Below, piece after piece: positions 10,477 through 46,691 of a DNA stretch of 64,000 bases; the stretch's first letter is position 1, and the number at the start of each line of letters is the position of its first letter. Source of the DNA: Antedon mediterranea. Lineage: Eukaryota; Echinodermata; Crinoidea; Comatulida; Antedonidae. The stretch covers positions 4,441,001-4,505,000 of the forward strand of contig NC_092680.1 of assembly GCF_964355755.1 (NCBI RefSeq), given 5' to 3'. The notes under the pieces were generated by a model that saw only the letters and a list, made by a program, of their open reading frames with translations, was not told the DNA's origin and made no database searches. A program made the position numbers and the translations under genes.

Positions 10477-10789
10477 CTACAAGTCTGGCATTGAAACTAG
10501 AGTACTGTCATTTTGAACGACTTGGTATATATAATCATTACTTCGTGTTAGATTTAAGTAATTGCTACTGCCGATGACACATTCGGATCCGTCTTGGTCT
10601 TCGGTTAGACCCGAGTCTGCTCGCTTCATGATGTGCATGGCAGGGATGTCAAAGGAGTAGTTGCTTTCTTTCATCTTATCAGCAGGTACTTCGTACGTTA
10701 CGCATGTCACTGGTTTCGATGGTGCGTGATCACGTCTTAAGCTAGTGTAAGTTCCGTCTGCGCTGTACTCAAGTATTCGTGGAAGACCG
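10477..10789 (-). CDS. Gene A exon 7: cytoplasmic tail and stop
   Basis: Last exon, entered in phase 2 after AATTTTCAG; 103 residues and a stop. The tail holds seven tyrosines, including Y275 (YEVP), Y320 (SNYLNL, fits the S/I/V/LxYxxI/V/L consensus and the YxN Grb2-type pattern), Y329 and Y331 (DYIYQ). It ends in Met-Pro-Asp-Leu. Confidence 0.85.
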
Positions 10790-13700
10790 CTGAAAATTTC
10801 CCACAAACTTAATATTAATTTTAACAATGTAACAAAATATTTAATTTTTAGTAACTTTTATTAAAAGATTATGTTTGTGAAGAAAACTTGCTCGAGCCAA
10901 AACTCGGGCAAGAGAATTGAAAACGAAATGAATACATGATTTTACCTAAAAAATTCAAATATTTCTATAATAAGTTTCTAAAATGAAACTACAGTCACAT
11001 AATAAATTAATTAAAGTAACTTTGGAAGAAAAAAAAACATTACGAGGTAAATAAACACACTCGGATTTCCTAAAGCTCTGTCTACAATATAAAACTTTAT
11101 GTGACAAAAAGTGTGATGTGCTCATAATATGGACATGATGCTGTCACATCCATAACATATCCAAGCATATCACTACCATATTTGTGTACATCACATAAAG
11201 TGTGATAGTGTCGACAGAGCTTTACTGAAGGCTGTTTGAAGATTGTCGCAAAGAGTCATGTAACGATACAAAGAACTAAAATAGTGTGTTTTAGTTTTAA
11301 AAGTTCTTGGTCTGTTATTATAATGATTTCATTTGGATGAAAAGTGCTTGTAATTCGTCAGAACCACGAGCATGCATGAGGTCACGTAGACTTTATCACC
11401 AAATGTCAATGATCTTAATAATGTATAGCCTTAGCATCCTCGTTTCTCCTACAAACATTGTCAATCTTTTAATTAATGTATGTGATTAATGTATCTATGT
11501 TACCGTCTGTATTTACAAACTTAACATCAAAATGTCATCATTCCTATATGTGTTGTTTTTGCTAAAAAGGTTCAAACTTATCTTAATTAAATCTATATTG
11601 GTTAACAATTAGATGTCTTAGCAATTTGATTAATACTCCGCTAATATTATAACATGTGATAAACAGGGTGGAGAATCAATCATGTTTTAAGTAATTCAGT
11701 TGGATCATACATTTAAGTTGTTTGCAAAGACTGTATGTAGATACAGTATATGCTGCTTATTGCTTGGTTCCCTCTAGAACGTAACGCAAGACTAATGCCT
11801 GGTTCTAATGCTTGGTTCCCACTAGCGACGCAACACAATGACGTAACGCAACTCAAGTGAATTGACCAATCACAAGCGATGGCTTATTCGCTTGTGATTG
11901 CTAACTGTCTATAACTTCGCTTGTCATTGGTTAAAACGCTTGCGTTGCGTTGCGTTTACGTCCTTGCGTTACGTTCTAGTGGGAACCAACCATCACTAGC
12001 GATGCAACGTAACGCAACGCCACGACGTATTGACGCAAAGTGCTGTATTGCGTAATCACAAGTGAGTGGAGTTGTGGCTTGGTGGTTATGATGCTTGGCT
12101 ACTACTCCGAGGGTCCTGGGTTCAAGTCCCGTCACATGTCAGGATTTTTTCTAAGGACAAAATTACAACTCCACTCCCAAAGACTTGTAATAAGACTTTG
12201 TTTATGTAGAGCATCTTGTGTATATGTTTGTCTTTTGAACCTCTGATGGTAAGCAATGGCTGGATGGATCACCCTCATTAAATATGGTTTTTAAAAAAAG
12301 TGGGGACCAAGACGCAAAAGTGCTCCAAACATCGTAGGTTTGATTTCACGAAAGCGAGGGAAAACACTATTATTGAATTTTTTTTTTGTAAGTTGCGTAT
12401 GTTGCGTTACGTTGCGTCGCTAGTAGGAATCAAACTTATATGTGGATTTATATGATCCATGCCTTTCCGTAGATATTCAGTACTGTGTGCATTATTGTAT
12501 TTTGTTCAGCGTGTTTTTTTGTTTGCCATAGCAGTTATTCGTGTTTCTCTAACCCTGTGCAACATTGCGCAGGATAACCAATAGATTGATGTAATGAGCT
12601 GATGAAAATGGTCAGTGCTCATGCGCACAATGTATGGATAAGATAGTACCCCCAATAGTACGAACGCTTGCTGGAACAGGGTGCAGATTACAAAAAGGGA
12701 CCACGCTGTGCCAATGTGACGCTGAGCATCAACTAACTATAAACTACTTTCCATAACTAATCGGCGCGCTATACTGCTGTAGAAAATGACATAGGTAGCA
12801 ATGTGAATGCAGCATGGGGGTTCAGTCACAACTGAATGAGCTTTTTAAACAAATATTGTTTAATATGTAGGCTAAACACACACTTTAACCGTCGTAATAT
12901 TTAGATAAATATCAAAAAATGCCATATGACATTTTTATTTCAACTTTTATTGCGAAAAAGAAAAACATATTTTTGCTAAGAAACACTTACAGATCCTAAG
13001 TGGGTACTCAACAGATTTGTGCAATCCCTAGGATAATCTTAATAAAACCCCGTATATTACGTATATCATTATTGATGATACAACGAATCCACTATTCGTA
13101 AGTCGTTTGCAATATAACAGCCTTTTGAGTAGGCCATCCTTTGAAATCGGCGGCGAATTAAGTTACCTATAACACTCAAGAGCTTGCTTTCCCAGTAGAG
13201 ATTATAAAGCCATAACATAGCATAAGATCTTAATATGTTGCATCACTATGTCTTTATGGAGCTCATCATTTATAGGGTGAAAGGTACACTTTATTTTCTA
13301 CAATGTGAACTGACAGTTAACCTAAAACTGTTCGTCATGTGTTTTTTTTTCTTTTCTAAAGAAACAAAATAGACCTACATTTGGAAGATTTATCCCACTT
13401 AAATTTTACCTGATTCTCGTACGTGATTTTATATATGTATAGAGACAATTTACAGAAAGTGAAGTTTCTGACTGCAACCTTTCATTCACATGGGTTACTT
13501 TTATTTCTTATGAGATTTTTATATATTTTTTTCAAGCCAGTCCCGCATTTGCAGTATACTGTACTAAAATCGACTGTACATTTTGGGTAAATAACAAACG
13601 TTAAATACATGGTATATATTTTATTTAGTACTTACCCGTGTCTTTTTGTGTATATTAAAAATGCGACGGCACATACAACAAACACCGTGTTGAGTATACC

Positions 13701-16700
13701 AAGAAGTAAAGAAATAATGGACACAGTTGTCTCACCTGTTTGATAAGAATATGAAATAATATAATATATTGTATTAGGATAATTACATATTTCTTTAATC
13801 ATTGTATTATACATAAAATATTGTTTCATCATAAATAGCGTTAGTACTAATAATTAAAAAATAAACATTGACATTTATTTCGCTTTAAATCTTGGTTCCC
13901 ACTATAGAGCGTAACGCAAGGACGTAAACGCAACGCAAGCGTTTTAACCAATCACAAGCGATGGCTTATTCGCTTGTGATTTCTAACTGTCTATAACTTC
14001 GCTTGTCATTGGTTAAAACGCTTGCGTTGCGTTTACGTCCTTGCGTTACGTTCTAGTGGGAACCAAGCTTTAGATCATTCGCATTAATATTGTCATATCC
14101 ATATCTTTATAAAATAAATTCCCTGGATAAAAAAAATAAATTATACATGTTGTTTGGTTGCTCATTTGATTAGTTTATTTTTCTAGTAATATTAACTAAT
14201 ATCATACTGTTCCTTTATTTCTTTATTAAAGTAAGCCTCATATTAACTTTCCATTAAAACTGACGATGTTTATAAGAATTGTAATATTGATTGGTCAATG
14301 AATGACTATACATAATTTGTTAGATATCCAACATACCAATTATACTGACATTGTTATAAATAATGTCAATTTGATACTTGTACTTACGTGGTTGTAGAAT
14401 TACTGTTGGATGTGCAACGTCTGTGTAAGGCTTTCTTAGAACATCATCTAAAATGGAAATATTTTGGCTTAAGTCAAAATAGATATGTGCTTTAAGTGTA
14501 AAACATAGACTTCTTCCTATCTTCTTTTTAAGTACTACATAAATTACGTAAACAGTGTTCCTTTTGAAAACAAACTTAAGATGATTATTTGCTAAGTAAG
14601 TTTGGTAATTCCAACCCAAATTAGAAAATTGGAGAAATGTATCGTATCTAATAATTAGGCCTATACGAAGGTACTGTAAAAACAGAATACTTGAGTTATA
14701 ATATTTGTTGATTCTTAATGTATACAGTATTATTGTACATGAATGAATGTATGATATGTTTCCGAACATCGGATATAAAGTAACATTGCAATGTGGTAAT
14801 ATTATATGTGCCATGTCAGCACTTTGTCGTACATCTATATATAAATTTACGTAAGGGCAAAATTCGGTAAATCGCGCCTTACTTCTAGAATTTTTACTCG
14901 ATTGTATATAAAGTTGGTTCGTACTTTCGGTACTGATTTTAACCACCTGATGTAACCCTGTTTACTAATTAAATTAAGTTAGATAATTAGTTATTGACGA
15001 TTAAAACGAATTTAGGTTCAACGATTTGCCCCAAATAGGGGTGTTTTCCGGTCGTGGTATACACTGTCTAATGGATGTCCATCTTGAAAAATACCCGCCA
15101 CAAAAATGCGAGGAGGCTTCGCATTTTCCTATCTCCTCCTACGATAATTGTTTTTAATAGCTGAAAACCGGTTGAACAGCTAGAGTACAGCATCATAATG
15201 TTGAAGACAGGCCGGTTTTCTTTAAAAAATGCTATTTTGATACATGTAATACGTTTTTACAAATGTATTGATTTGTGATGAATGGAACATTCCAAATTTT
15301 TTGGTTTAACCATAGAGGTATAGATTTAGATTTATGGGCCCCCTTGGAGAATAAACATAAATAGTATTGCAATGCTGTACAATACTGTTAAGGTATTAAC
15401 CACTTTTAATCGCATATTTGAATCGCAAATTTCTTACTGTGAGTGTTGGTACTGTTAGATATAATATCAACAAATATACAAATAAACTTTATTACTGTGA
15501 GTGTGGGTAGGCCCTACTGTTAGATTATAAACATATAATATACAAATAAATAAACGTTATTACTGACAATTGCTTCTCAACGTTTGTATTAATTAATAAT
15601 TTAAAAATATATAAACTTCGTAGTGGTGTATCGTTACATGTACTTTACTATTTCAATCGACTATGACAGACACAGTTTTAACAAAGTTTTAAATCGTAAA
15701 TGTTTTACTGTATTTAGTGGTATATTATTTATAGGCCTATAAAACATTAAAAACAATATTTCGTTACTGAGTGGATAAGAATATATTTTAAAATGTTTCC
15801 TCTTTGTACCTTCTTCCCCCATCCCTCAACCCTTAATATTACATACAAAACACAAAGTGGGTTTGTTTAAATGAGTCCAAATAAAAAAAATTTACTCATT
15901 TTGTTTCTCTCTCTCGGAAGTAATTCCCAGGGTGCTAATTTTGGTTGACTACATAAATCATTGTGTATATTTATTCGTTTCTGTAAACGACAATGTATTA
16001 TAGTCCTGCAGTACGTACATTTGAAATCTCCATTTTTGTCTCGCTGGAAATACTGTGTATTCGAGAACCATCTGTGGGCACGACCTAGATGGTACGCGAG
16101 CGAAGCGAGCGTGCCATCTAGTATATCAAATTAGAACTAAATGATACTTAATTGTATAGAAAAATAAGTGCGAAAATCTGTTTCTGTCTTAGAACTATTT
16201 TTAGTGTCAAGTGTCAAATTTGACATGATGATATAGATTGTTGTATCATAACATAATGGATTATTTGACACATGTGCTCACATGAGGAAATAGTGTTAAA
16301 AGTACAATGATCTTTAACTGATATGAAATTATCGGACTTGCATAAATATCACTTATGATGCTATTTGTATATGATGCTATATCCCAGCATTACAGGTTTT
16401 ACGTCAGCGCAGTCTATATAGAATAAAAGTCTTCTCATGTTTTGTTACTTACTCTGACGTAAGGTCCTTTGCACCAAATTCAATTTAAGTTTAAAAAAAA
16501 TTGGAAAACGTAAGCCCATGGCTGTTGCACCAAGTTTATTCTAAACAATTTCGGAAAACGTAGGCCCCTGTTACATCAAATTCAATTTAATTTAAACAAA
16601 TTTGAAAAACCTAAGCCCTGTTCCACCAAGTTTATTTTAAGTTAGACAATGACGGAAAGCGTAGGCCCTGTTGCATAAAATTCATTTTAAGTTAAACAAA

Positions 16701-19700
16701 TTCGGAAGTTGTTTTCACCCATGACCCTTTGCCAATATCATGGTGTTCATACGATCGCGATTGCGCTGATTTTAGATGGCTATATACTTAAGACCATCAA
16801 GCTAGATTTCATTTAATCAGCAGTACTCGGTATGCCTACAATCTGATCCTTGATGTACCGGAGAAATCTATTTACAGTTTTGAATCCGATGGTACAATAC
16901 ATCATAGTTTGGCAAAACTCATGACCGCATATCACCTATTAGCGTTCGTAATATATTAGCAATGTAAAGTTACTAATAGGTGTACATTACTATGTACTTA
17001 TTACTACAGTATTTACATATTGTGCTAATAAACAAAATGTTTACGAGGCGTATCGTTGATATTAATGATTTGTCACAGTAAAACTTGTTAAAATATCTTT
17101 TGGATGTCATTTACAGGTCACGCAGATACATATAGATTATGCTTATTATATGCAATTCATTCTAAATTACTGTTGGTCAGTTAATAATAATGCTGTAACT
17201 TCATTACCATCAGTATATCTGTCAGTACGATATCGCACCGGTGGAGATCGGGCTGTATGTATGTTCAGACACATTGTTTTAAAATAATGGAATTTTGTAT
17301 AACACGCCAGGTAGTATATCATTATAATGATTGGTTCCCACTAGGACGCAACGCAACGACGTGAGCCCAGCGCAAGTGAGTTGACCATATAAACAAAGTA
17401 GGACAATCCATCTCTTTTGATTGGTCAAATTACTTGCGTTACGCTTTACGTCTTTGCGTTACGTCCTTACAGTGGGAACTTAGCTTAAAGAAAATACAAC
17501 ACAGTTGGCGCTGTTACTTTAAAATTACCAGTCATAGCATATTGCGTTAAAGATATTTTATTTCATATCATATTATAATGTAAATGAATACGGTAATTAC
17601 TGTGAGTTTGATTTAACAAATCCACAAATTGGATAAAACAATCTTTATTTACCTGTACAGATACCAAAAAACTGTAATTTAAAGAGAAAAATACTCATGT
17701 CTGCCGACCATTGTGTTTTGTTACGTATTTAACCGTTTAATTTATATTCTTATAAAGTGAAATGTTGTGTTCGTTTTGTTTTGTACTGAAGTTAATGTCT
17801 TTATTATAAATGCAAAATGGCCTATTCAAAATTTGTGTGAATTAATCTTTGTTTTTCATAGTTTTGAGGAACAATACATCTTCAACCATTATCAACTGAT
17901 AGGTTAGAAGTAAAATAATTTCTAATTGTTTATACGTTAAGAAAAAAACAAAATGGCAAAATCTTAGGTAACACGTGTGAATGTAGCTTATAAGTTCTGT
18001 CAACATGGGCATATCACTACCATAATTGGACACATCACACTTTTTTATGCCAAACTAGTTTGTATAGTGTAGACAGAGCTTAAGGCTGGTCATTGCACTT
18101 GCATGCCTAAAAAAATGGAAAATTCTTACGTAACACATAAATGTAGCTTAAAGCTCTGTCTACACTATCAAATTACATGTGACAAAAAATGTGATGTGTA
18201 CCATCTTTGGGCACATCGCACATTTGGTCAAACTACTTTGATGTGTAGAAAGGGCTTTAAGATGTATGTGTGTGTACACGTAAGAATGTGCAGATGCATC
18301 AATGCTGTTAATGGATTACCTGTAATCTGACAGAGTAAGCTCTAAAATGTAAGGTTGTTTATATCATTAATTTCGAAGTGTTTTCAGCAACAAATTTAAT
18401 GTCATGTGAAACGGAGAAAAGATAAACTTTGGTTATCAATTATCATTGTGTCGGTAGGTCACACGCATGTCAATTCGAAAATTTAAGTGAAACGACATTA
18501 AAAATACTTGTTGCAGAAATATATTGACTGGTGGCGCTGTTGATAAAGAACACCTACCATATATTATGCCTACGTCATCAATTGCAACTTCGGCGTTTCC
18601 TCTAAATATTACTTCAAACATTATCTAAAAACAAATACATATCATAAGTAAAGATCATTGGTGAGTTTACAGGATGTAATATTACCTTTTTAGTATATTT
18701 GATGAACAGTTTTAATTTTTGTCATAGGAGGCCCCTAAATGAAATAAAGTATCGTCTATGAAAGGAACGGAAATGTACTAGGCACTAGAAAGCAATGAGT
18801 GACGTCATAATTCCCAGTAGACATTGATTATGAATGGTGATAATACAATTGATAACTGATATAGAAGGAGACTGAGAATAAGTGTACATATCAAATAAAT
18901 AAATTATAATACATATTAGTTAGTTTGAAACGATTGGATAGAAGAAGAATGAAGGAAAAAAAATGAAGAGTGTATTTGTAGTAAGCGGACCATAGACATA
19001 AGGGTTTATTTGTTTCATTGTATTTACTGTATTAATTAAAAATCTAAACCCTAAGTAATACGCATTTTATTAATTTGATTTGATTGATTTTTTCAAATCA
19101 CTTTTTTTTCTGTTATCTTGTCATGTATATGTTTTAAAATAAAATAAAAAATTAAATTAAAAAAAAATCGCGGTAATCTATCAAAAAAATCATATCAGAT
19201 TTGAATTATTTGAATTTAGACCTGGTTCATACGCAGATTGGGAAGAAACTTAAATTGAAAAAAATAATAGGCTTATTTATAGAATATTATAAAATATTTA
19301 TTATAAAATGGATACTATACAAGAAATATCAACATTAACAAATAAAAGAATTGTATTGTAAAGATATGTTGTACACTATCACAATTTATGTTTTGATAGT
19401 ATTTTTTTATATGACCATATATGGACATGATGATATCATATCCTTACCATATTTGGGCATATCACTACCATATTTGGGAACATAACACTTTTGAATTTAA
19501 CGTTAACATTCTATCAACTCAACATAACGGAACATTAAATGTGACAAGAGCACAAACCTTAGAAATTAACTTAAATACCAAACATTACAACTGCAAAATG
19601 TCATGTCATGAAGACATCTAATCTGTCTTTCTTTTTTTTTTATCTAAAAATTATCTTTTTTTTCTCTTATTAATCAATTGTGCAGTAGTCATGAGCCTTG

Positions 19701-22700
19701 GACAAACTTTGATGAATATAACAGCTCTCATGTCACTACGACTGTATGGTACTTAACAAGTTGTGACAATACTAATACTTTTTTTTAATTTTGTTTTTCA
19801 GATTTTTTTAATTTAAAAAAAAGCCTAAAATGTGTTCTAAATTTTGGTAAGTTGTTGTGGTTTTTATATAGGCCTAATAATAATAAAATATCCTAAAATT
19901 TGTTCTAAATTGGCGCGCAATTTCAATCGTTTGCGTTTTAGTAACCATACCAGAATGTGTTCATGACTTACAGAATCACAACACTAATCGCCAACCATAG
20001 ATATTATTTCAGGCCTATAAGATGTTTAGCATAGCTTACCTGAAACATAGTTTCCGAATGTAAAATCAAACTTGCTCTGGACCACTGACCGTCCGTTTTT
20101 GTACATGGACGTCTCCAAGATGCTATTGTATTATTTTCTGTTCTGATATTATTTATATGTATTCTTAGCTCACAATCTGAAGATTGTTTAGCTCTTGTGA
20201 AATAGTAAAATTCTAACGTGAAAAAGTCCTGTTTATGCCCCTCCCAAGGTGACTTCAATCGCGCTGTAAACTCGTTTTTATTCGCATTTTTACTTCTCCA
20301 CGTTACGTGCATAAAATGCCCTATAAATTAAATATTTATATATAGTTATGATCACCATAATAACGCCAGATTATTCAGATGTCATCAGTGTTTAATACAC
20401 CTAGACAGGAATGGTTTCTGACTGCCAATAGTCGGTTAGAATCAATCTGGTGACAGCTTCAGAACCTAATGTTTACACTATGCCTTCAACCAAACTCAAA
20501 CTACCGAGACAATTCCAAATACATCTTCCCCATCGTATACATTACGATGGGAAGGCAGGAGTACACAGTTTGTATCTGAAAACCCAACATGTATCAAAAT
20601 AAAAAATAACATATAATTATATACATAAATCCAACGGCAAATTACTAAAAAAATAACAATGCTGTGGGTATCAGTGGCTAGATTTCAATGGAGATACAAA
20701 AAAAAAAAAAAAACTAAATCAAAACGACAAAGTAAAACAGCCAGAAAAGCTTTCGGGCAACACTAGCCCTTCATTAGTGCATAATTATATACACATATAC
20801 AAATAAAATCATTAGTAAGTATAGTTTGGTTTTGCCATCATGTATGGTGACCAATCCTCAGAGGGCAGGGTTCAAGTCCTGTAATAGTATCATGGTCATT
20901 ACAGTGCCTTCGTGTCTACCAAAGCCACATAATTAGATTTAGGAAATATTGTATCATGGCTTATTACCCATCCTGTAATTGGCGTGACGTGTTCTAAATT
21001 AAACAAAAAAATTAAAGTCCATTTGGTTTTTATGATTATAATTAGAAAACCACCGCAGTATATTATCATCTTTGTGAATATCATTAACTTTCTCATCGCT
21101 AAGTAACGTTATCATTTTATCGTATTTACTGATATGATATTTGGAATTGTCAGTTAATATACTAAAATTGGAATGATTATTACAATGCTTTACGTTACGT
21201 AGGTTCGTTAGCTCATGTTTATGTTTTGTCATATTGTATTTTTGTGAAGGTCCCTAATGATCAACTTCGGTTGGATGGACCACCCTCGTAAAATATTGTT
21301 AAAATTCAAAATAAAAATGGTGCGACGCTTTATGCCATGTGCGATACAATACGGTAACACTTTATTGCAATCACCGTAGTAGTTCAAATCAAAATTGAAG
21401 TTTAACAAAGTTCAAAGGAAAACAAAACAATTCTTTTGATAATACTATTTCACCATTTCCTTATACTTTTCCATTGGTTCTACATTTAAATTACCCTTAG
21501 ACATTAGAGACAACTTTATAGCGTTACTAAGTGGTTTTAGATTAATTAGTGTATATGAACAATTTGAGATTTCTGTAAGCCTGGCATGTCAAACGACTTT
21601 TAAACATTGATCCTGGTTTAGTGTACAGGAAAAAGACGCCACCGTAAGATCATTGCCATATCCGGACTTTTATGTGGTTTTAAGAGGTCGATCATGATGA
21701 TGCCACAAGCAAAGTTTTTTTTTGTTTTGACAAAATAAAATGTTAAGCTCTGTCTACATTATCAAACTTTATGTGACAAAATGTGATGGACATGATGATG
21801 TCATATATCACTACCATATGTGGGTATATCGCTACCATATTTGGGCACATCACACTTTTTTGTCAAACTAGTTTGATATTGTAGACAGAGCTTAAAATTC
21901 AAATTAACAAATTACAAAAACCATAAAAAATGGTTTTTTTTTTTATTACTCGACAATTGTAAATAATGTTGTGTTTTATTTTTTATTATGTATTTTTGGA
22001 TGGATGTTTTAAGCCTTGTGTACACTATCAAACAGTATGTGACAAAAACAAATGTGATGTGTCTATATTTATATGGACAAGATGATGTCATATCACTACC
22101 ATATTTGGGGATATGACTACCATATTTGGGCACATCACACTTTTTTTGTCAAACTAGTTTGATAGTGTAGACAGAGCTGTATATCAAATTCAAAATGAAA
22201 ACGATGCATTCAAACCGTTTCCTGTTGTGTGGTCTCCGGATGGAGGTTCATCAATTCCTGCCATCAACAGATCTGCTGTTTTCGTCCTCTTCCAACCAAA
22301 ACTGTTCTTTGCTTTACTGTATCCACACGCTCCGCTGTTTTCAAAATTACAGTATACATTTTGGCCTATTGAATTAAACAAAAACGAACATTATAAAGGT
22401 TGTTATGAGCTTGGTAACGTATTTAAAATGTAACGATGGTTTAAAACCAGATAAGATAGGAATAAAGCTCGTCCCTGATTTAACTAATACATAATAATAT
22501 GTACTAATACATATAATTAATATCCTCGAATTTTCTCGTCATTACATGTTAAAGCTTGGTTCCCACTAGAACGTAACGCAAGGACGTAAACGCAACGCAA
22601 GCGTTTTAACCAATGACAAGCGAAGTTATAGACAGTTAGCAATCACAAGCGAATAAGCCATCGCTTGTGATTGGTCAATTCACTTGTGTTGCGTTACGTC

Positions 22701-24417
22701 CTTGCGTTGCGTCGCTAGTGGGAATCACGCTTTAAGCTTGGTTCCCACTAGAACGTAACGCAAGGACGTAAACGCAATGCAAGCGTTTTAACCAATGGCA
22801 AGCGAAGTTATAGACAGTTAGCAATCACAAGCGAATAAGCCATCGCTTGTGATTGGTCAATTCACTTGTGTTGCGTTACGTCCTTGCGTTGCGTCGCTAG
22901 TGGGAATCACGCTTTACGGCCATCCAGCAAAAAAACCCGCCAGCCCGGAGAGGAGGTAGGCAGCGCTGGGAGATCTGGCGTATGATGAGTACTACTATAT
23001 CGCGTCTGCTACGCCCCTACGACCACCTAGATCATGGGACAAACGAAACGAAACGAATTATTTCATTATTAGAGTTGTTTGGACTTTCTCTTTATACAAT
23101 AAATAAAAACATTGCAATGTTAGAATATCATTTATTTGCCAAACAATTTCCACATTTTCGGAAATACAGTAAAGAAACGTACAGTAATTCCCACACGTTA
23201 TGCGTCACGTTTGACATGGTTCAACGACCATTATTATGACAAAATGTGAAATTAGAATTTTTTTTTTTTCAATTTTGTTGTTGAATATGCCATTTTAATG
23301 TCACGTAATAGTTTATTCATAAAGATTTACCTGAAAAAATATGTAATTTAAAGCAACAAAAAATACTTAAATAGTCAGACAATGGTTTTTGGTTAAAACT
23401 GAAAAATTGCATTCATTTTTTTATGTTTTTTGGGGACAATGCATCTTTAATACCATAAATGAGAAAAAAAAAACTTCCCCGTGACTTTAGATAAAAAGTT
23501 TAAATGGTGTTAATCCGAATGGACATATTTGCAGCAGTAATAACTTTTGCACAAATTAATTTAGTAGTTCTATTTATATATTAATTTTTGAATGTAAATA
23601 GAGCACCTGTTTTTATATTTGAGTCAGACTTGTAGTTTGCAAAAATATGGTATATTTATTTGATGAGCAATGGTATACTACCGAGATTGTATTAATTTGT
23701 ATTTTATTTTACATTACCCAGTACATTTTTCTTAACGTGGATTACAAAAATCAATATAATGTAATACTAAATGATTAAATTGATTTTTTTTTATTTTTAA
23801 CTTGTTTTGTACTTGTATTGTATTTTGTACTTGTATAATATTAATATAGCATTAAGTGTGTTTCTATTTATTTAATTATTATGTTAGTCTGTTACTTCTA
23901 TCTTTCAAATGTCAACCAGTCTGTCGGCCAGTTTTTTCACAATCGCCGTCATTTATTTCTTGACACACGTTTTCATTGAACTTATTTATCATCAAACATT
24001 TCAAACCTAAAGTAGATTAAGTATTTGGATTCTATTCTGTATTTTTAGATCCGACGCACATCTTGAAAACCATAACAAAATGTCATTCAAATCCCTAGAT
24101 ACGGTTTTTTTTTCGTTGACAACACGATTCTCCTCTCCTCTTAAGATTTAGGCTAGATAAATCTATTTGCAATTCAGTGTTAAAACTTAGAAGCTATCTT
24201 AATTGAATTGATAACACAGCCCACGCGGCTTGATACTAACAGTATAGATAATGTTATTAACATGTATACTTTAAGGCGTACGTTTAGTACTGTAGTATGC
24301 TGCTATATAACTGTGTGTTCATAAAAAAGTAGCAAACAAGATCTTACCTGTTGATTGGTGTACCCCGGTAGCTGTTATGGAAAGAAGTAAAAAGTAGCTC
24401 CGTAAACGGATAGCCAT
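10477..24417 (-). CDS. Gene A: single-pass MAM-domain receptor-like protein, 7 exons, 346 aa
   Basis: Minus-strand exons in transcript order: 24417-24348, 22365-22216, 20320-20040, 18624-18558, 14447-14388, 13735-13636, 10789-10477. The coding length is 1041 nt, and every join has GT/AG and a matching phase (1,1,0,1,1,2). Residues 1-23 form a signal peptide (MAIRLRSYFLLLS start). Residues 27-188 are one MAM domain: Cys29 and Cys37, the GHFMHV block at 74-79, Cys123 and Cys146, and the closing FEVIF...AIDDV segment at 170-185. A short stalk (190-212) precedes the transmembrane helix (about 214-238), which is followed by the basic stop KRH. The tail (240-346) has seven tyrosines, including SNYLNL (ITIM-like) and YEVP. 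MAM domains mediate adhesion or dimerisation outside the cell; the ligand here is unknown. The start ATG has A at -3 and G at +4. Divergent paralogue of gene B. Confidence in structure is high; function is inferred from domain only. Confidence 0.88.
11073..11222. mobile_element. Family A inverted-repeat MITE
   Basis: AAGCTCTGTCTAC... and ...GATAGTGTCGACAGAGCTT flanked by TA on both sides. In the last intron of gene A. Confidence 0.8.
11761..11797. mobile_element. Family B MITE left-end fragment
   Basis: TGCTTGGTTCCCTCTAGAAC with ACGCAAGAC then breaks off; next to a full copy. Confidence 0.5.
11808..11990. mobile_element. Family B inverted-repeat MITE
   Basis: TGCTTGGTTCCCACTAGCGA to GTTCTAGTGGGAACCAAC, intact inner arms. 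It directly precedes a B2 element, the same order as at 9605-9986. Confidence 0.78.
11992..12437. mobile_element. Family B2 MITE split by a SINE
   Basis: Left part 11992-12062 and right part 12302-12437 match 9784-9986 piece by piece (GTATTGCGTAATCACAAGT; CATCGTAGGTTTGATTTCACG). The S1 SINE lies between them. Confidence 0.75.
12063..12301 (+). mobile_element. tRNA-derived SINE (type S1) inserted in a MITE
   Basis: A-box-like TGGCTTGGTGGTTATG and B-box GGGTTCAAGTCCC are followed by a body ending GGATGGATCACCCTCATT and an A-rich tail. It is flanked by AAGTG on both sides as a target duplication. It splits the family B2 element at 11992-12437. Confidence 0.8.
13636..13735 (-). CDS. Gene A exon 6: transmembrane helix
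   Basis: 100 nt, phase 1 to phase 2. Encodes a hydrophobic run (VSIISLLLGILNTVFVVCAV) continuing to FLIY, then the basic stop-transfer KRH. The acceptor is CAAACAG and the donor GG|GTAAGT. Confidence 0.87.
13888..14070. mobile_element. Family B MITE, near-perfect palindrome
   Basis: Both halves carry the same arm (CGTAACGCAAGGACGTAAAC...GCGTTTTAACCAAT and its reverse complement), unlike other copies, whose two arms differ. In an intron of gene A between the stalk and transmembrane exons. Confidence 0.75.
14388..14447 (-). CDS. Gene A exon 5: short extracellular stalk
   Basis: 60 nt, phase 1 to phase 1, flanked by CATTTTAG and C|GTAAGT. Encodes about 20 residues (DVLRKPYTDVAHPTVILQP) linking the MAM domain to the membrane helix. 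It is the counterpart of the 411-nt proline-rich exon in gene B. Confidence 0.75.
14834..16121 (+). mobile_element. Non-autonomous Helitron, copy 2
   Basis: Same ends and body as the copy at 6836-8382, very similar along its length, inserted between A and T in intron 4 of gene A. It has a single version of the unit duplicated in copy 1. Small open frames inside are not coding. Confidence 0.75.
16455..16706 (+). repeat. Degenerate tandem repeat, about 58-bp unit
   Basis: Roughly five units of TTGCACCAAATTCAATTTAA...AAATTCGGAAAACGTAGGCC with substitutions. In intron 4 of gene A. Confidence 0.65.
17325..17485. mobile_element. Family B MITE, diverged
   Basis: TTGGTTCCCACTAGGACGC and GTCCTTACAGTGGGAACTTAG ends with an altered core. 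Confidence 0.6.
17996..18082. mobile_element. Family A MITE, internally shortened
   Basis: Left end AAGTTCTGTC jumps directly to GGGCATATCACTACCAT and the intact right end GTATAGTGTAGACAGAGCTT. Part of a local duplication with the next copy. Confidence 0.65.
18150..18261. mobile_element. Family A MITE, shortened copy
   Basis: AAGCTCTGTCTACACTATC at the left; diverged TTTGATGTGTAGAAAGGGCT at the right. The upstream flank repeats that of the copy at 17996. Confidence 0.65.
18558..18624 (-). CDS. Gene A exon 4: C-terminal MAM strand
   Basis: Phase 0 to phase 1, 67 nt. Encodes IMFEVIFRGNAEVAIDDVG, the conserved closing motif of MAM domains. The acceptor is TTTTTAG and the donor G|GTAGGT. Gene B has a 76-nt exon of the same phases in the same place. 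Confidence 0.87.
19360..19505. mobile_element. Family A MITE, degraded
   Basis: Recognisable by GTACACTATCACA and the core TGGACATGATGATATCATA with TTGGGCATATCACTACCAT; the right terminus is lost. Confidence 0.5.
20040..20320 (-). CDS. Gene A exon 3: central MAM domain
   Basis: Phase 1 to phase 0, acceptor TTTATAG and donor CAG|GTAAGC. It completes the GHFMHV block, then ARLKSPW, a beta-strand run FFTLEFYYF, and the cysteine pair in SSDCELRI and WRRPC. These match the order of strands and the second disulfide in MAM domains. Confidence 0.88.
20615..20800 (-). repeat. Dispersed repeat, Penelope-like tail candidate
   Basis: On the minus strand: AATGAAGGGCTAGTGTTGCC, CGAAAGCTTTT, a T run, TCTAGCCACTGATACCCAC, and AATTTGCCGTTGGATTTATG. 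The GAAGGGCTA...CCCGAAAGC motif recalls 3' regions of Penelope-like elements (from memory, not searched). Confidence 0.45.
20841..21305 (+). mobile_element. Older type S1 SINE, internally enlarged
   Basis: It has a B-box-like AGGGTTCAAGTCCT at 20867 and the same 3' end (TGGATGGACCACCCTCGT) near 21273-21290 as the copy at 12063. The extra sequence between suggests decay or a nested insertion. Confidence 0.55.
21746..21892. mobile_element. Family A inverted-repeat MITE
   Basis: AGCTCTGTCTACATTATCAA and TTGATATTGTAGACAGAGCT, TA on each side, two tandem core motifs. Confidence 0.8.
22011..22180. mobile_element. Family A inverted-repeat MITE
   Basis: AAGCCTTGTGTACACTATC at the left and GATAGTGTAGACAGAGCT at the right, 119 bp from the preceding copy and 36 bp from exon 2 of gene A. 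Confidence 0.78.
22216..22365 (-). CDS. Gene A exon 2: first part of MAM domain
   Basis: Phase 1 to phase 1. Encodes the MAM opening CNFENSGACGY with two cysteines and the GWKRT segment, where family members have an aromatic-tryptophan stretch. The acceptor is AATAG and the donor G|GTTTGA, which is weaker than its neighbours, but the frame joins give the expected family motif on both sides. Confidence 0.85.
22552..22732. mobile_element. Family B MITE, tandem copy 1
   Basis: AAGCTTGGTTCCCACTAGAA to CGCTAGTGGGAATCACGCTT. Only about two or three base differences from the adjoining copy; intron 1 of gene A. Confidence 0.82.
22735..22914. mobile_element. Family B MITE, tandem copy 2
   Basis: Same ends and core as copy 1, separated from it only by TA. 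Confidence 0.82.
22916..23040 (-). repeat. Dispersed repeat family I
   Basis: Reverse-strand match to 215-385 with an internal length difference of about 50-60 bp. It abuts the family B MITE ending at 22914. Confidence 0.5.
24348..24417 (-). CDS. Gene A exon 1: signal peptide
   Basis: Encodes 23 residues with a basic start (MAIRLR) and a hydrophobic core (YFLLLSITATGV). It ends in phase 1 at a consensus donor G|GTAAGA. The initiator context (AAA before ATG, G after) is strong. Confidence 0.85.
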
Positions 24418-24761
24418 TTTAAAGATCAGGCGCGTGTTATGTTCAGGCTTCTTCCGGGCTAATGTCGGCGTAAAGTGTATCGGACTGGAGTAGCGCTGCT
24501 TAGAACATTTTCATTTTTGAGTCATAGAATCTTAGTCATTAATAAGGATTTGACCTGTGAACCAATGAACAGAAACAAACATATTTTAAAATGAAAGCTA
24601 ACGGAACCTCTATAACGATTCACATATACTGCAAAAAGTCATAATGTATGTAATAAGAAATAAAACATACCGTACCCCAGATGTGCCATGCCAAGAATTA
24701 AAACTCTATCGGTTTTCCATTGAATTTATCGAATTAATTTGATTATGTGTAGGCTACTCCC

Positions 24762-25090
24762 GCTATTTGATATTGTCATATTTTGACTGAAATGTACTTA
24801 TGATATTATGCAAATGAGATTTGATTTGAATTGAATTTATTTGGAGATTCATTATATATAAATATTAATACTATGTACATTTTGATATTTGTCATATTTT
24901 GACTGAAATGTATTTAAATAAGGTTTGATTTGATTTAAATTGAATTTATTTTGAGAATCATTATATAAATATTAATACTGTGTACATTTGATATTTGTCA
25001 TATTTTGACTGAAATGTATGTATGATAGTATGTAAATGAGGTTTGGATTTGATTTGAATTGAGAGAATCATTAAATTCATTAATATAATA
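24762..25090 (+). repeat. Tandem repeat, about 125-bp unit, near three copies
   Basis: Each unit holds ATTTTGACTGAAATGTA, TTTGATTTGAATTGAATTTA and AATCATTATATAAATATTAA. It lies in the region shared by the gene A and B promoters. Confidence 0.65.
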
Positions 25091-25805: not shown

Positions 25806-25990
25806 TTCAATTTGTTGGCAGTAAATTTATAAATCAGTAATAGAAAATTGTTGATTTTTGTTTTGTACTATTTCGTATACACAAATAATAAAAAGTTAAA
25901 CTTTTGTTGCGGTAAATTTGTAAAATCAGTAATAGAAAAACTGTTGATTTTTGTTTTGTACTATTTCATAATATACACATTTTTAATTTT
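25806..25990 (+). repeat. Direct duplication, about 95 bp
   Basis: Two adjacent copies of GTAAATTT(A/G)TAAA...TCAGTAATAGAAAA...TGTTGATTTTTGTTTTGTAC. Confidence 0.65.
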
Positions 25991-27663: not shown

Positions 27664-27736
27664 ATGAACACACGGATTTTTACGTACGTTCTTGTAATTT
27701 TGTCTAGCCTGGACTTAACATCTTCAACTTCGACCG
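27664..27736 (+). CDS. Gene B exon 1: signal peptide
   Basis: Encodes MNTRIFTYVLVILSSLDLTS and four more residues, a typical secretory leader. The donor is G|GTACGT in phase 1. The frame stays open about 135 nt upstream but contains no other ATG. Confidence 0.8.
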
Positions 27737-33700: not shown

Positions 33701-36700
33701 ATGCGCCTGCTACAGAGAAGAACAGCCACGAGAACGATTGGCTTATGTGAATGCGATCATTGAAACACCAATGTATAACATCCTATCCAAGTCTCGAGTT
33801 AGGCTCGTCATGTTTTACTATTTTAAATTAAGAGACCAGAGCGCCCTCCATATTAAGAAAATGGGATATAGGAATGGAAGACCAATTGGAAAAATGATAT
33901 GGACTGGTAATGGAATAACGTTTGGTGTTGGATGGAAAAAGATCGATATTGAATTTTATGCAGAACAGTCATTCAAGGTAATAATTTACCTTTTCTGTAT
34001 ATACAGTATCTTATCTAATACACATATCGAAATATTCATTATACTATAGTTCCAATAAAATAAACAATAAAGAAATAAAAAACAGAAGAAGGAAAAGATT
34101 GATTTACAATTTCAAAATAAATATTGCAAAAGTACCTACAATTTGTGAACATTATTAAGCAAACAAGATATATGACATTTTATTTATACCCTTTATAGCT
34201 TGAATTTGAAGCAGTTGTAACAGCAATAGAATACAATTCTGTGCGAATAGACGAATATTACCTCATGATCCAAGGTAAGATTACATTAAATGAACAAGTT
34301 TTAAAAGTTTTATTATTGAGTATAGAAGAATGTAGTAAATTTAGGTTTTATTGTTTGAGAACATACACTGTTCTATAATCTTTGTACTGTATTTTAATTT
34401 ATTTAAAAAAAATATATTTTTGCACACATGGCGTCTCATACGTATAATATTTGAGCTCAAAATAATACATTCCAGACAAAAATCGAATATTCGACTGGTT
34501 GACTAACATAAAAAAGACAATAAAGACAAACAGGGCTAACTTTTCTACTGAAACACTCGTAATTGATTATAAGCAATCAACATTTCTTCCGTAAATGTGA
34601 CCTGGTTTGATGTTGAGGACCTCTTCTGAAACAACCTTCCGAACTCAAATGACCACTATCCTGTGCCTTATAAATGTAGTTTTCCACCCTTTTACTATAC
34701 AAGTTGTTTGATCTGTTTATTTTGTTTGTATAGATAATAATACACATTGCATAAAGATCCGGTACAAGAGAACACGTTGTGTACATACATACAACATGCT
34801 CCGTATATGTACACACATGATCAGATTATAATGTTTATTTCGATATAAAATAAACGAAAAGTTATCTGAGAAATCAACCTTGCACTTGAAACCTCCATTA
34901 TCATAAAATTGAAAAGCACAGTGTCAATTAAAGTTCATTAGTCATTTTCCGATTCAATAATCTTTAATCAGAAGTAATTCAGCGTTAGAGGGCGCTATGA
35001 TGGAAAAACAGAAATAACGTATCTATTATTTTCGTCATTTAGCGGGTAAAAATTGAAATTTTGAAATGTTTAATAATAAGTTGATTAAAGTTTTTAAATC
35101 AAAGCATATGTCGCTTTAACGATAATACTTCAGTGGTTCTTTATATAAATCTAACTTTATGAGATTCAGCCACTGTTGATGTTAAGCTGTATTGTCAACA
35201 AAGTTTCATTATCAATAACAATAGTTTAAACAAATATTTGATTTATATATGGAAGGTAATAAAATACCGTCAATAATATGTTGGATCCATGTATAAGAAC
35301 CACTTATAACGAATTAGAACATCAGATCTAAAAAGTTATCCTACGTTTAGTTTTTGTGTTATTTATAGTTCGATGTAAAGATAAAATAATTGAAAACGAA
35401 TTTATCTACAAATGTATAAGATCAATTGATTCTACTTGCCTAATTAAAACCATAACAATGGATTTCTGAAAATTGAAAACACGGTTCAAAATTAACAGCA
35501 AAGTGAAAGAATATGCTATCAGACCTTACTAATTTAAACTTTGTCAATTACCATTAGACGCTTGTCCCCTAATCTTTTCGAGTTTAAAAACAGTATTGAA
35601 AAAGATGTCAACGTGCCTGGTCAACTTGTCGTACTGGCAAACGAGTTTGTTCACTCGATGTATTTCTCTCGGGGGTACGAGATTCCACCTTACGATGCCT
35701 CATTTTTCATCTGTGTACGAAACTACGTTATTCTAATTTGTAATGATTTTTACTCAGCTTATTTAAACTCTCCGGATAGCAGTTGTTAGTGTTCTATGGA
35801 AGTATCTAATTGTGTACTCAGGTTGATTTCCGTTGCATTTGTGCAAAGCACTGAGACCAACTAAGTATAATTCATTTTAGTGTGCTTTTTTCATGAGTAT
35901 GTGCTGTACTCATGTGATCTCTCTGCCTAGCAAATGTCTGTCTCTTGAGTCGACTGTACTCCGCGAGGTCACTAAGCACACGCTTAAGTGAGTCGGTCGT
36001 GATCCTCATTATATGTGTACCGCCAAACCAAAACCAGGCGTTTGTCGGCAGCAAGGGATTTCTGTAAAATGCTTCTGAATGTGTAAAACCTATATCTTGA
36101 CCATTTTTAGTTTTTTAAATAATCTTACAGAAAATTTACCGTAGATTCCAAAAATCTAGGTATTTTAAAGAAATTATAAGTATAAATCAATGAAAATAAC
36201 ATTTTAATGAGACCCCCTTTTTCGTCTTTGGTGAAAAAATCAAGTTCTATTCTGTAATTTGTGTCTATTTCTAACCAACTTTTACCTCTTTGATTATGAG
36301 AAGACCCCTTAATGTGTGGTATTTTTAGAAAGCTCGTGAAAAAATCTTTCCAAAGATAAAGGTTGTAGGTCATGTAAAATAATAGTATAGCCAATCAAAC
36401 ACATTCTTTAATAACCTTTTGGTATAAGCAAACCAGTCTTGTTGCTACGGAATCCTGAAACAGGCAATTTGATTGGCTAACAGAGTGGCTCAAGTCATTG
36501 AAGCGTTAAATTTGCCTTTAACAGCTATTCAAAGTACACTGAGGAAGCGGTAAGGTTTTAACAAAACATTCTTACTGTAAAAAACATTCAATATTAATTT
36601 ATACTTGCTATTTATGCATCCTAGATAATAATAAAACAACCTAGAATAGTTTAATGATTTATATAATATGAAAAGTAGAAATATTGGCTTCGCTAGCGAA

Positions 36701-42700: not shown

Positions 42701-45700
42701 ACATTACATTTTTTTGTCATATAAAGTTTGATAGTGAATGTTGTGAGTGTCACCAATCCAAAGGTAAATGGGTCAACAAATAAATAATAAAGAGTGTAGA
42801 CAGAGCTTTATAAATAAGTTTCATCAAAATTAATCATAAATAATTATCGTGTATTGTTGCACAAATATGATATCTGAAGTCATCATCAATCATTTAACAA
42901 TTGTACGATTTTTAAGCAAAATTAAGTGTTTTAAAGGCGTTTATTAATAATTTATTTATTTTATCAGATTCGATGTGAATACACAAACGAAAGTGTCATG
43001 TTGTCGGTTAACCTAGTATCTCTCCGGAAGTAGAACTAATCGAGAGATTAATTAGTATTAGAATTTAAACTTCGATAAGTATTAAACTATCGATCGTATG
43101 TGATAGTTCTAAAAATTATATAGGAAAACGTTGATTGTAATCATTAAAAATATACTTTTATTTTATTAAAAATCACAACATTGGAAAACCTCTCTTAGAT
43201 ATAGAAAGCAATTGTATTTAAACATGTTTTGAACTAATTTAAACACTTTTTTGATAATCCATACCCACTTTGTTGTAAAACATCTAGAAACTATCAACAT
43301 CTTTTAAGGTGTAGATGACTATTATATAAACAACCTGCGGTAAATTAGTTACTGTCTATAGCTTATGTACCCTAAAGTTTACTTCAATTACTACTTCAAT
43401 TATATATAACCCCTGACATCTAAGGTCACGATTGATAGAGCATCTTATTTATTTCTTTACTTGTATGTCTGTTCATTACAATAAAAAGGTACCTGGATCT
43501 TGTTTAAAAATTCCTTTATTATTTTCTCCTTTCCATTTTCCTACTTTTTTCATCCTTTTTTTACAAGTTGCTTAAAAACAAAAATAAAACAGGTAACATG
43601 GCAAAATCAATCATAATGGATATCATTTATTCGTCACTGTTATTGTAGACTATATAATTGATTATGTTGCCTCTGTTAGTAGTTGTCTTGTTCACCTGTT
43701 ATCACTAACCATTCAATTACTGCAATTGTCACGTGGTTGGCAGTAACGGGTACCATTTTCAATTGCATTTCTTTCTTTTTTTGTATAATTATTTTGTATA
43801 GCCTATTTTAGTATATCTTTACACTTATTATAATTAATATAAACAGTATTGAAGATTTAAAACATAAACAAAAGTCATTAATATGTTAGTAGCGTATAAC
43901 TTTCTATTCTCACAAATTGTATTTCTTTTTAAATATTTCAGGGCATATGCATCCAACACAAGGTAATAATAATCCTAATGCTGGCCTTCCACCGTACGGA
44001 CCACAGATTCCAGTTCGACCTCCACCAAGAGTAACAAATCCTCCTCCACCAAGAGTAACAAATCCTCCTCCTCCAAGGGCTCCAGTTCCTCCAAAGCCAG
44101 CACCAAAACCAAAGCCTACTGTGAAACCGGTACCTCCAAGACGTCCTACCGTTGCGCCGCCAAACCGACCTGCAGTCCCACGCCCAGGCCGCCCTACAGT
44201 AAGACCACGATTTACAAATGTTTACCTAGCGACTGATCGGGGACTGGTTCCTGGTGGGTTTTACCCGACAGAAGATACATTTAAAGATAATGATATCCAA
44301 TCTACACAACTAACAACAGTGTTTCTAAAGGAAAATGTTCCATCATTCACACGTAAGTACTTTAAAAAATGCATAATTATATAAGTGATAAGTTAATATT
44401 GATCAATTAACAGTTATAATATAACTAAACAGTTCCTAATATAACTGTGTTTTGTTGTTGTTGACTGTGCCTCTCTGGGTTCGTTGTTTACTGTGCCTCT
44501 CTGGGTTCGTAACATTGTGTGCCATTACCAGTGACTCAACCTTCGTAGCTTTAAAATAATACAAGATTTCAATTTCCTCAACATGTGCCGGTAGGAAAAG
44601 CTAAAGTCTATGATTATAGTACTGTGCACTGCAACTATGATTCATGATTCGTCAAAAATAAAATAATAATAATATTCTGTAAACACAACTGTTGCTTATT
44701 AATATTATCAAATCTTATGCACAAAATTACTAAAAAAAATAAATACAAAATTGTGAGAGTACGATCTATCTGACTTCATTTCTATCTATTACATTTCGTG
44801 TGTACAATTCTCCATTCTGTTCGTAAACCTCAATAAAACGTTCAATGTTCAGACTTTCTTTTTCTACTACCTGTTGTGTTTTGTCTGTAAGGGGATGTTG
44901 TGTCACCTGGTCTTCCGCCGACTGTACATAAATACACCTTGCTCTCAAGTTGATTTTGTATCATGTAATCCACAATCCTCCAATCAAATGACAGAAATAT
45001 ATATAGTTGTTATAATAACTACTCTATATATTATTATACTCTATAAAGTAAAGTATACAATGAATAATCTATATTTATGGCGTAAACTTGAGATAAAGTA
45101 TCGATGCCCAGAATATATACAGCATCTACTGTTGGAATCTAGTAAATAAGGAAATATCCTAATCTATACAGAGCAACATGCCATCAAATTGGGCTTTTCA
45201 AAAAGGATACATATCATTCTAAGAAGAATATTAATTATAACGTAGGAACATAACACTAAACCGTTGTAGTGCATTGCTTTTGCTTTAAAGAATAACCTAC
45301 GCATAGTTAATTTACACATTCTACGCATGTACACATTATAGGTTCTGCCCGTTTCCTCTGCGTATCATCATTGCAAAGATTACAATACATGATAAACTGA
45401 GTCTACACACAGTTTATGAAAGTACATACATTATGCAAAAATAAGCCAATTTTCCTTAGTTTCACTATGAGTTAACTTACATTGGTTTTTTTTGGGGTTT
45501 TTTTTTCAGAGAGTTTGCCTTTAGTCGCTGTAGCAGTAGGGTTAGGCTTATTTCTTGTATTTCTCGTTGTTATGGTTGCCTGGGTGATTAGATGCATAGG
45601 CAGGGTTAACACGTAAGTACCGTAGTAATGTTAATTGTATTGTAATGATGAATGGTCAGTTCCGATGACGACGATGACGACAACGTTGATGATTGTTATT

Positions 45701-46691
45701 ATATAAATAAATATAAATTATAAATATATATTGTTTATTTTATGTCTTTAGGCACAATGTTAATAATAGTAAATTAATCACTGTCCTATCAGATAGGTGG
45801 TCATCTCCCTGAACGATGATGATTGTAAAAAAACAATCTGGTTTTGCCCCTAATAATATACTGGTATTGACAATGGTGCATGGCAGTATATGAATTCGGT
45901 CGGTGAACGTGTTCACACTTTGTTTGTAATACATAACAGCACGCATGTGGATAAAATACATTATTCTTCTTTAAATGGTGACGGAATCATTAAAATACGA
46001 TGTTAAAAAACAAAACTGTGTATTTTACAGACCTGAGTATCTTCAAAAGAAGGCAATGTTACTAAACCAATCAGATAGTATGCGTCTAGCCAATAGCAAA
46101 GAAACGAGTAAGGAAACTAAACGCGATTCTATGACGTCAAACAGATCGAAACGCAGTGGTGGAAGTTCAGTAGGCATATCCCCTGCAACACCAGACGATT
46201 GCACACCAATACCAACACCTACTCCTTCCTCACCTTCACCATCGACCACCAGTGAATATTCGGCTTTTCCAGGATTTACACCTACTCCCAGTGAAATGCA
46301 ATACCAGTGGGTTCCTATGCATAGGTATGAAGACATACTGGAAAAGGACATACAGGAAACCGATAAACGAGGGTTGCGGGCCAAAGAAAACGGAGACGAT
46401 GTGTACCAAAACGCACCGTTGAACAACAGAACAAAAAGAAATTCGAACCCATTACGGACAATTGCGGAGGAGTTAGAAGCCCAGTTCCGTAAACAGGGCG
46501 TTACGTTATTCAAGAAACAAAATGAGAACCTAAAAAATCACGAATACGTGAATAAGAACGCCGCCAGCAACCAAAACACGTACGTCTGTCGGAGTGAAAC
46601 GGACTGGGTTGAAAACTCAATATATGAAACGGGATCAGTTGCGAACAACACGAAAAACTATGAAATATTTTACCGCATGCCAACTCTCTGA
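27664..46691 (+). CDS. Gene B: single-pass MAM-domain receptor-like protein with proline-rich stalk, 7 exons, 583 aa
   Basis: Exons: 27664-27736, 32118-32258, 33691-33977, 34199-34274, 43942-44352, 45510-45612, 46031-46691. The coding length is 1752 nt, with GT/AG at every junction and phases 1,1,0,1,1,2. A signal peptide (1-24) precedes a MAM domain (about 26-192: Cys28 and Cys35, central strands LVMFYYF, closing DEYYLMI). A stalk (193-330) follows with a Pro-rich part near 208-272, including RVTNPPPP twice. The transmembrane helix (334-356) ends at RCIGR, and the tail runs 357-583. The tail has a Ser/Thr-Pro block (PTPTPSSPSPS) and tyrosines in YEDI, YQN (Y488) and YVN (Y535). ATG 27664 is the first ATG in its open frame and has A at -3. 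Paralogue of gene A, transcribed away from it. Extra or alternative exons in the 9.7-kb intron 4 cannot be excluded. Role: probable adhesion or signalling receptor (inference). Confidence 0.87.
31760..31988 (-). mobile_element. tRNA(Asp)-like SINE (type S3)
   Basis: On the minus strand: GCCGAGTGGTTAGGACAC, an anticodon-loop region CTGTCAT (GTC, Asp) and a B-box GGGTTCAATTCCC, then a body with GGAAAGGAACTGGCCACC. Mismatched stems and the non-tRNA body argue against a functional tRNA gene. It lies in intron 1 of gene B. Confidence 0.7.
32118..32258 (+). CDS. Gene B exon 2: first part of MAM domain
   Basis: Phase 1 to phase 1 after TTCTTCCAG. Encodes YQCTFSELGMCGF and the DLINWTKQ segment, aligning with CNFENSGACGY...GWKRT of gene A. 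The donor is G|GTAAGA. Confidence 0.85.
33483..33648. mobile_element. Family A inverted-repeat MITE
   Basis: TGTCTACACTATCAAACTA on the left and TTTGATAGTGTAGACAGAGC on the right, with tandem CCCAAACA(C/T)G core units. It ends 43 bp before exon 3 of gene B. Confidence 0.78.
33691..33977 (+). CDS. Gene B exon 3: central MAM domain
   Basis: Phase 1 to phase 0, 287 nt (gene A: 281 nt). Encodes GTHLCACY, then VRLVMFYYFKLRDQSALHI and a GWKKIDIEF strand. Unlike gene A there is no cysteine in the second half; two cysteines sit close together in CAC instead. The donor is AAG|GTAATA. Confidence 0.86.
34199..34274 (+). CDS. Gene B exon 4: C-terminal MAM strand
   Basis: 76 nt, phase 0 to phase 1, acceptor CTTTATAG and donor G|GTAAGA. 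Encodes LEFEAVVTAIEYNSVRIDEY, the MAM closing segment with I-D before the last strand. Confidence 0.85.
38316..38456. mobile_element. Family A inverted-repeat MITE
   Basis: AAGCTCTGTCTACACTATC and GATAGTGTAGACAAAGCTT with flanking TA; intron 4 of gene B. Confidence 0.8.
39468..39602. mobile_element. Family A inverted-repeat MITE
   Basis: AGCTACACTATCTAACTAG at the left and TTTAATAGTGTAGACTGAAC at the right; the core CCCAAATATGG and TGTCCATATATGGGCACAT are intact. Confidence 0.72.
41566..41690 (+). repeat. Family D minisatellite element, short subtype
   Basis: AGTCGCGTTTGCACGCGACT head, CTCACTATGTCGGTCG, a short GGTC run, and a CACGCGGCTGCAGCCATG tail. Preceded by CTCTTTTT as in other copies. 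Confidence 0.65.
42101..42592 (+). pseudogene. 5'-truncated CR1/L2-like LINE 3' end
   Basis: The frame 42101-42535 encodes RRSHISPVLRELHWLPI...RTLRSSD...APTLWNSLPPQIK...FKKLLK, the well-known C-terminal region of CR1/L2-group reverse transcriptase proteins. A GCTTTATAAATATTG 3' end and an ATA/ATT microsatellite tail follow. It sits in intron 4 of gene B; the catalytic region is absent. Confidence 0.85.
42622..42808. mobile_element. Family A MITE with a 56-bp insertion in its right terminal repeat
   Basis: The right repeat reads TTTGATAGTG, then 56 foreign bases (42737-42792), then AGTGTAGACAGAGC. AGTG is present on both sides as a target duplication. TA follows the element. Confidence 0.78.
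43942..44352 (+). CDS. Gene B exon 5: proline-rich extracellular stalk
   Basis: 411 nt, phase 1 to phase 1, after AAATATTTCAG and before C|GTAAGT. It has Asn-rich then Pro/Arg/Lys-rich sequence with a duplicated eight-residue unit (RVTNPPPP). It then runs into a non-repetitive segment (NVYLATDRGLVPGGFYP). It probably forms an extended spacer holding the MAM domain off the membrane. Confidence 0.82.
45510..45612 (+). CDS. Gene B exon 6: transmembrane helix
   Basis: 103 nt, phase 1 to phase 2, acceptor after a long T run (TTTTTTTTCAG). Encodes LVAVAVGLGLFLVFLVVMVA then WVIRCIGR, a hydrophobic helix with a basic cytoplasmic edge. The donor is AC|GTAAGT. Confidence 0.87.
46031..46691 (+). CDS. 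Gene B exon 7: cytoplasmic tail and stop
   Basis: Entered in phase 2 after TATTTTACAG; 219 residues and a stop. Basic and Ser-rich at the start, then a Thr-Pro/Ser-Pro block, then a charged half with about nine tyrosines, including YEDI, YQN and YVN. It ends in Arg-Met-Pro-Thr-Leu. Confidence 0.87.

Follow-up and report, generated by a model that had tools for sequence, protein, structure and literature searches.

The window analysed here is a stretch of 64,000 nucleotides (C11:4441001-4505000) that contains two divergent genes, A and B. Gene A runs on the reverse strand from position 24417 to 10477, gene B runs on the forward strand from 27664 to 46691, and their start codons are separated by 3,246 bp. 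The initial annotation had proposed two compact, single-MAM transmembrane genes that lie in opposite orientation about 3.2 kb apart, and this description is borne out. Every junction used in our models shows the GT and AG dinucleotides, and splicing leaves an open frame in each gene, giving a protein of 326 residues from the six exons of A and a protein of 583 residues from the seven exons of B (Table 1). Both have the same architecture, in which a signal peptide is followed by a MAM domain encoded on three exons, a transmembrane (TM) exon, and a unique tail. The two genes probably encode genuine receptors, of an ordinary sort.

Table 1. Exon models and other features of the locus, in positions of the window
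Feature	Positions	Strand	Remarks
A signal-peptide exon	24348..24417	-	Ends in phase 1; one of only two such exons found in the window
A MAM exon 1	22216..22365	-	Ends in phase 1; weak donor
A MAM exon 2	20040..20320	-	Ends in phase 0; matches Pfam MAM and the independent profile
A MAM exon 3	18558..18624	-	Ends in phase 1; longer form with weak donor possible
Candidate A stalk ORF	14323..14961	-	Starts in a dispersed repeat; not taken as an exon
A transmembrane exon	13636..13735	-	Phase 1 to 2; one of only two found in the window
A cytoplasmic tail exon and stop	10477..10789	-	Ends M-P-D-L
Stretch between start codons	24418..27663	.	Only two short pieces match elsewhere in the genome
B signal-peptide exon	27664..27736	+	Ends in phase 1
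B MAM exon 1	32118..32258	+	Ends in phase 1
B MAM exon 2	33691..33977	+	Ends in phase 0; found by the independent profile
B MAM exon 3	34199..34274	+	Ends in phase 1
B proline-rich stalk exon	43942..44352	+	Symmetrical (1-1); codon score +0.234
B transmembrane exon	45510..45612	+	Phase 1 to 2
B cytoplasmic tail exon and stop	46031..46691	+	Ends M-P-T-L

Three splice sites in the model of gene A receive weak scores, namely the donor of MAM exon 1 (-2.0), the acceptor of exon 2 (-1.0), and the acceptor of the tail exon (-2.3). The donor used for MAM exon 3 (position 18557) scores 4.5. Beyond this donor, the frame continues with G-R-C and about 30 residues, and reading through it would give a sequence that resembles a usual MAM end followed by a short stalk. 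Because the later phase-1 donors downstream score only -8.4 and -3.7, the shorter form of the exon was kept. A longer third MAM exon, or a tiny stalk exon, is a possible alternative.

The MAM domains of both genes were recovered by several profile searches. When the spliced proteins were compared with the Pfam MAM profile (PF00629), as the initial annotation had suggested, both exceeded the curated cut-off of 26.4 bits: A scores 77.3 bits over positions 1-152 of the 158 in the profile, and B scores 34.5 bits over positions 1-149. The outcome that the initial annotation named as refuting its reading, sub-threshold MAM scores for the two proteins alike, therefore did not occur. The ORF that holds exon 2 of A reaches 30.7 bits with Pfam MAM, and exon 2 of B by itself has no Pfam match. 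We also built a profile from 30 other exon-2 sequences of the same genome, leaving A and B out, and compared it with the 5,292 ORFs of at least 20 aa in 164 kb. This independent profile found exon 2 of A (E 2.6e-7) and exon 2 of B (E 1.3e-4), and no further MAM exon 2 appeared in the 164 kb up to E 10. In PDB searches, the MAM domain of MDGA1 was the best solved relative of both A (5.6e-7) and B (1.3e-9), and A also matched the Spodoptera SR-C MAM structure 8yt7 (8.3e-6); a combined A+B profile matches receptor tyrosine phosphatase mu (RPTP-mu) at 1.7e-5. No Pfam domain besides MAM scored over its cut-off in either spliced protein, and an NCBIfam search of A gave no match.

The two N-terminal cysteines of the first MAM disulfide are present and aligned in A and B. 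The cysteine before the aromatic motif is absent from both, which does not exclude a MAM identity because it is also absent from five of the 30 sampled exons. The terminal MAM cysteine is likewise absent from both proteins as modelled; in A, a cysteine lies just past the donor used. With the second MAM disulfide defined as reported for 8yt7 (the pre-aromatic cysteine and the terminal cysteine), this bond is thus missing from A and B as modelled, and given its loss the surface of their MAM domains may be altered.

Scans of the window also recovered the signal-peptide and TM exons of the two proteins. A search of both strands for a start codon, a hydrophobic segment, and a phase-1 donor returned exactly the two proposed signal-peptide exons, and a search for TM exons (80-130 nt, nine phase combinations) returned only the two proposed. 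The thresholds of both scans were chosen with the candidates known, and the results therefore speak to specificity and are not a blind test. Codon scores were compared with those of a null set of 61 non-coding ORFs, which has a median of -0.193 (90% at -0.022) and whose members are longer than the third MAM exons. MAM exons 1 and 3 and the tail of A, together with all three MAM exons, the stalk, and the tail of B, score above all 61 null ORFs, on a scale that was trained on MAM exons of the same genome and so favours MAM exons. Exon 2 of A (-0.049) and the TM exons (-0.234 and -0.090) fall within the null range. The tails show no excess of tyrosine motifs over shuffled versions (P 0.07 to 1.0). 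Genome searches with the second MAM exons and the tails of A and B returned only the query itself, with a coarse first pass that may miss distant paralogues.

The initial annotation had placed a stalk between the MAM domain and the TM segment of both genes and had given both the intron phases 1,1,0,1,1,2. This order and these phases hold for B. For A, the order stands except for a separate stalk exon, and the phases without that exon are 1,1,0,1,2, leaving the sixth intron unsupported. The top in-phase candidate for an A stalk and most of those ranked next fall within a single ORF (14323-14961), and the remaining candidates are small (for example 15494-15438, of 18 aa). The opening 45-60 residues of the 14323-14961 ORF recur throughout the genome, where 150 of 2,933 candidates match, the ORF itself included, and the matches are mostly confined to these residues. 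The ORF and two pieces of it score between -0.107 and -0.159 per codon, which falls within the spread of the 61 non-coding ORFs. We rejected a stalk exon here because the ORF begins in a dispersed repeat and its codon score is like that of non-coding sequence, a score that is not decisive alone given that A exon 2 and both TM exons share this range.

Gene A splices in frame without a stalk exon because the additional stalk exon of B is symmetrical, and such an exon is free to come and go. If the B stalk exon is disregarded, each of the five A introns has its counterpart in B. The A intron that separates MAM exon 3 from the TM exon contains one copy (14831-16123) of a direct repeat, and the other copy lies at 6833-8384 (95-97% identity).

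The initial annotation also raised a possibly shared promoter, for which a distance of 3.2 kb is long. The stretch between the two start codons has 32 matches in the genome, comprising itself and 31 matches to two short pieces, in a search that skips simple repeats and very common words. A dispersed repeat of roughly 100-190 bp occurs in both orientations in the introns of A and B and nearby (11064-11225, 21743-22194, 33494-33651, 38307-38459, 39460-39607, and 47098-47256). Elsewhere in the window, a long Thr/Ser-rich ORF with a mucin-like look (51130-52062, forward strand) has no Pfam match, and an acidic ORF with internal repeats (53737-54390) has none over cut-off. Two other ORFs (60261-62046 and 42098-42535) resemble fragments of reverse-transcriptase elements, and the latter has no Pfam match over cut-off.

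The significance of the shared intron phases was examined against other MAM exons of the genome (354,431,138 bases, or 354 Mb, in 18 contigs). Our sample is a non-random set of 33 of the 151 MAM matches reported, composed of four array slices and chosen isolated matches; two of its members are nearly identical copies. A phase-1 acceptor lies where the match begins, near profile position 42, in 31 of these 33, and acceptors of the other two phases are present at the same site in 3 and 2 of them. Control positions shifted 30 to 60 bases upstream gave 4 to 7 of 32-33, and positions shifted into the exon gave 10 to 21 of 33. Several sampled exons also share the phase-0 donor of A and B near profile position 131; others continue and end in phase 1. 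A phase-1 start of exon 2 is the common MAM layout among the sampled matches of this genome, and because it is general, it does not single out A and B as belonging together. Among the phases, only those of the TM and tail exons add evidence for kinship between the two genes, and agreement of phases inside a MAM domain offers no evidence of recent duplication.

Large tandem MAM arrays at C7:20.59-20.70 Mb and C11:14.94-15.11 Mb account for much of the list of MAM matches. At other loci (L016, L017, and L028-L030), a MAM exon lies within a dispersed repeat; these include C4:14749300-14751300, C1:2889940-2891952, and C1:9004844-9006856. The MAM-bearing part of a 2-kb repeat query has matches of at least 98% at six places, its own included, and two copies on C1 share a 6-kb block at 99.7%. 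Related repeat units that lack the MAM part are present at many other places. The longest ORF in the one copy that was checked (L029) encodes 133 aa.

With respect to the origin of the pair, the likelier reading, to which we assign a probability of about 0.5, is an inverted tandem duplication of one compact MAM-TM gene, followed by fast divergence, with the symmetrical stalk exon gained or lost along the way. The initial annotation had likewise read the pair as a strongly diverged inverted tandem duplication. In its argument from intron phases, the exon-2 start phase loses its force because it is so general. Other evidence stands: A and B are adjacent and alike in order, their TM exons are of similar kind (100 and 103 nt, with equal phases), and both tails end in M-P-x-L. 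This last resemblance extends to three of four positions; it would have a chance probability of about 7.5e-4 had the motif been specified in advance, but it was picked after being seen. Furthermore, the 164 kb hold no third MAM exon 2, and similarity over the signal peptide and the first two MAM exons amounts to 35.4 bits with composition correction off.

Identity between the two proteins is low, as originally reported (21% and 25% in two comparisons). Several results weigh against this duplication. The tails are unrelated by score (z -0.34). For MAM exon 2, the similarity between A and B relative to shuffles is z 3.3-3.6; 9 of 30 other exons align better with A than B does, and 7 of 30 align better with B than A does. 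For MAM exon 1, it reaches z 9.0-9.2 and is surpassed by 2 of 17 others for each gene, where exon 1 was located by a loose pattern for 17 of the 27 given matches and a few of these are doubtful. B exon 1 scores best with an exon of the array at C11:1.66 Mb (z 12.8). Both genes have closer MAM partners than each other. A and B also do not join in a tree of 32 exon-2 rows, where their end branches are the longest (3.3 and 3.75 vs a median of 0.91). Forcing an A+B clade costs 4.80 log units, and with an AU p of 0.317 the clade is neither supported nor rejected. An inverted duplication is plausible and possible, and the sequences do not establish it.

An alternative is a history in which A and B derive from separate MAM genes of a MAM-rich genome and became neighbours through chance or rearrangement, which we regard as a real possibility at clearly less than even odds. 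MAM exons are common in this genome, as the 151 reported matches attest, and in exon 2 several unlinked MAM exons resemble each gene more than its neighbour does; the nearest partner of B exon 1, in an array, agrees with such a history. However, similarity ranks are weak at the divergence indicated by the long end branches of A and B. According to PMC4545420, MAM domains are short and evolve rapidly, so the ranks are weak evidence, and under separate origins the common compact order would be a coincidence. It is unlikely that the chains were mis-joined, for example by giving B a stalk, TM segment, and tail from another gene or A a MAM domain from a longer protein: the introns are long (the stalk, TM, and tail exons of B follow 9.7 kb after its MAM domain) and A has its three weak splice sites, but the frame is kept at all junctions, the scans find a single signal-peptide exon and a single TM exon for each gene, on the correct strand and in the correct order, and a Pfam search of 10 intron ORFs found no domain over cut-off. 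Taken as a whole, the two are probably real and ordinary genes for compact MAM receptors, in whose original description one exon is unsupported and the argument for paralogy is overstated.

We tentatively propose, at close to even odds, that A and B are real type I single-pass surface proteins and serve as receptors in recognition, adhesion, or endocytosis. What the DNA itself shows is the chain of exons, their open frames, the homology to MAM, and a hydrophobic TM segment; the ligand, the oligomer state, and the signalling are what we infer beyond this. An N-terminal MAM jellyroll would lie near the membrane in A, whereas in B a proline-rich stalk would carry it; one transmembrane helix and a tail that has no recognised domain would follow. 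The MAM domain would bind a partner or ligand, singly or within an oligomer, the tail would recruit adaptors via short motifs, and both proteins would work in the manner of class C scavenger receptors or neuropilins. We give very little credence to the more elaborate idea that A and B form a co-expressed pair, one stalked and one stalkless, of an unnamed compact MAM family with fast-changing ectodomains and a dropped second disulfide, and that the two act jointly to recognise self or microbes in this animal lineage. If expressed as modelled, the genes would show how far a MAM receptor can be reduced, to one domain, an optional stalk on a symmetrical exon, a helix, and a tail. Among the titles and abstract openings examined, we found no invertebrate family that combines a single MAM domain, a TM segment, and a tail.

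Other MAM genes of the same genome resemble A and B in that exon 2 starts at an equal place of the profile and in phase 1, as seen in the sample above. They differ in that many of them lie in large tandem arrays, whereas A and B are alone in 164 kb. Among known proteins, MDGA1 provides the best solved relative of both MAM domains. MDGA proteins are GPI-anchored and carry Ig and FNIII domains, whereas A and B have a TM exon and a tail and no Pfam match to Ig or FNIII. RPTP-mu and neuropilin are, like A and B, single-pass proteins that bear a MAM domain. RPTP-mu has Ig, FNIII, and phosphatase domains, and in neuropilin CUB and coagulation-factor domains precede the MAM domain; A and B differ from them in having no Pfam match to Ig, FNIII, phosphatase, CUB, or FV domains. 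The MAM domain of neuropilin-1 is monomeric according to PMC5104691.

The class C scavenger receptors (Drosophila dSR-CI, Spodoptera SR-C, and shrimp MjSRC) share with A and B one MAM domain, a single TM segment, and an intracellular region, and it is the MAM structure of the Spodoptera receptor that A matches. SR-C proteins differ in having CCP domains (two in MjSRC) and, in insects, also a somatomedin B domain, none of which was found in A or B. CCP has no Pfam match in either spliced protein, and none of the intron segments that are open, of phase 1-1, 90-330 nt long, and furnished with at least four cysteines looked CCP-like by eye. Before MAM exon 1, A has no such cysteine-rich segment and B has one (30244-30345). 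Because CCP was found in neither, A and B are not filed as SR-C. As outlined in PMC5222524, shrimp SR-C recognises virus, its MAM and CCP domains mediate oligomerisation, and its intracellular region recruits beta-arrestin and clathrin, upon which internalisation follows. By analogy, A and B may work like class C scavenger receptors without being members of that class.
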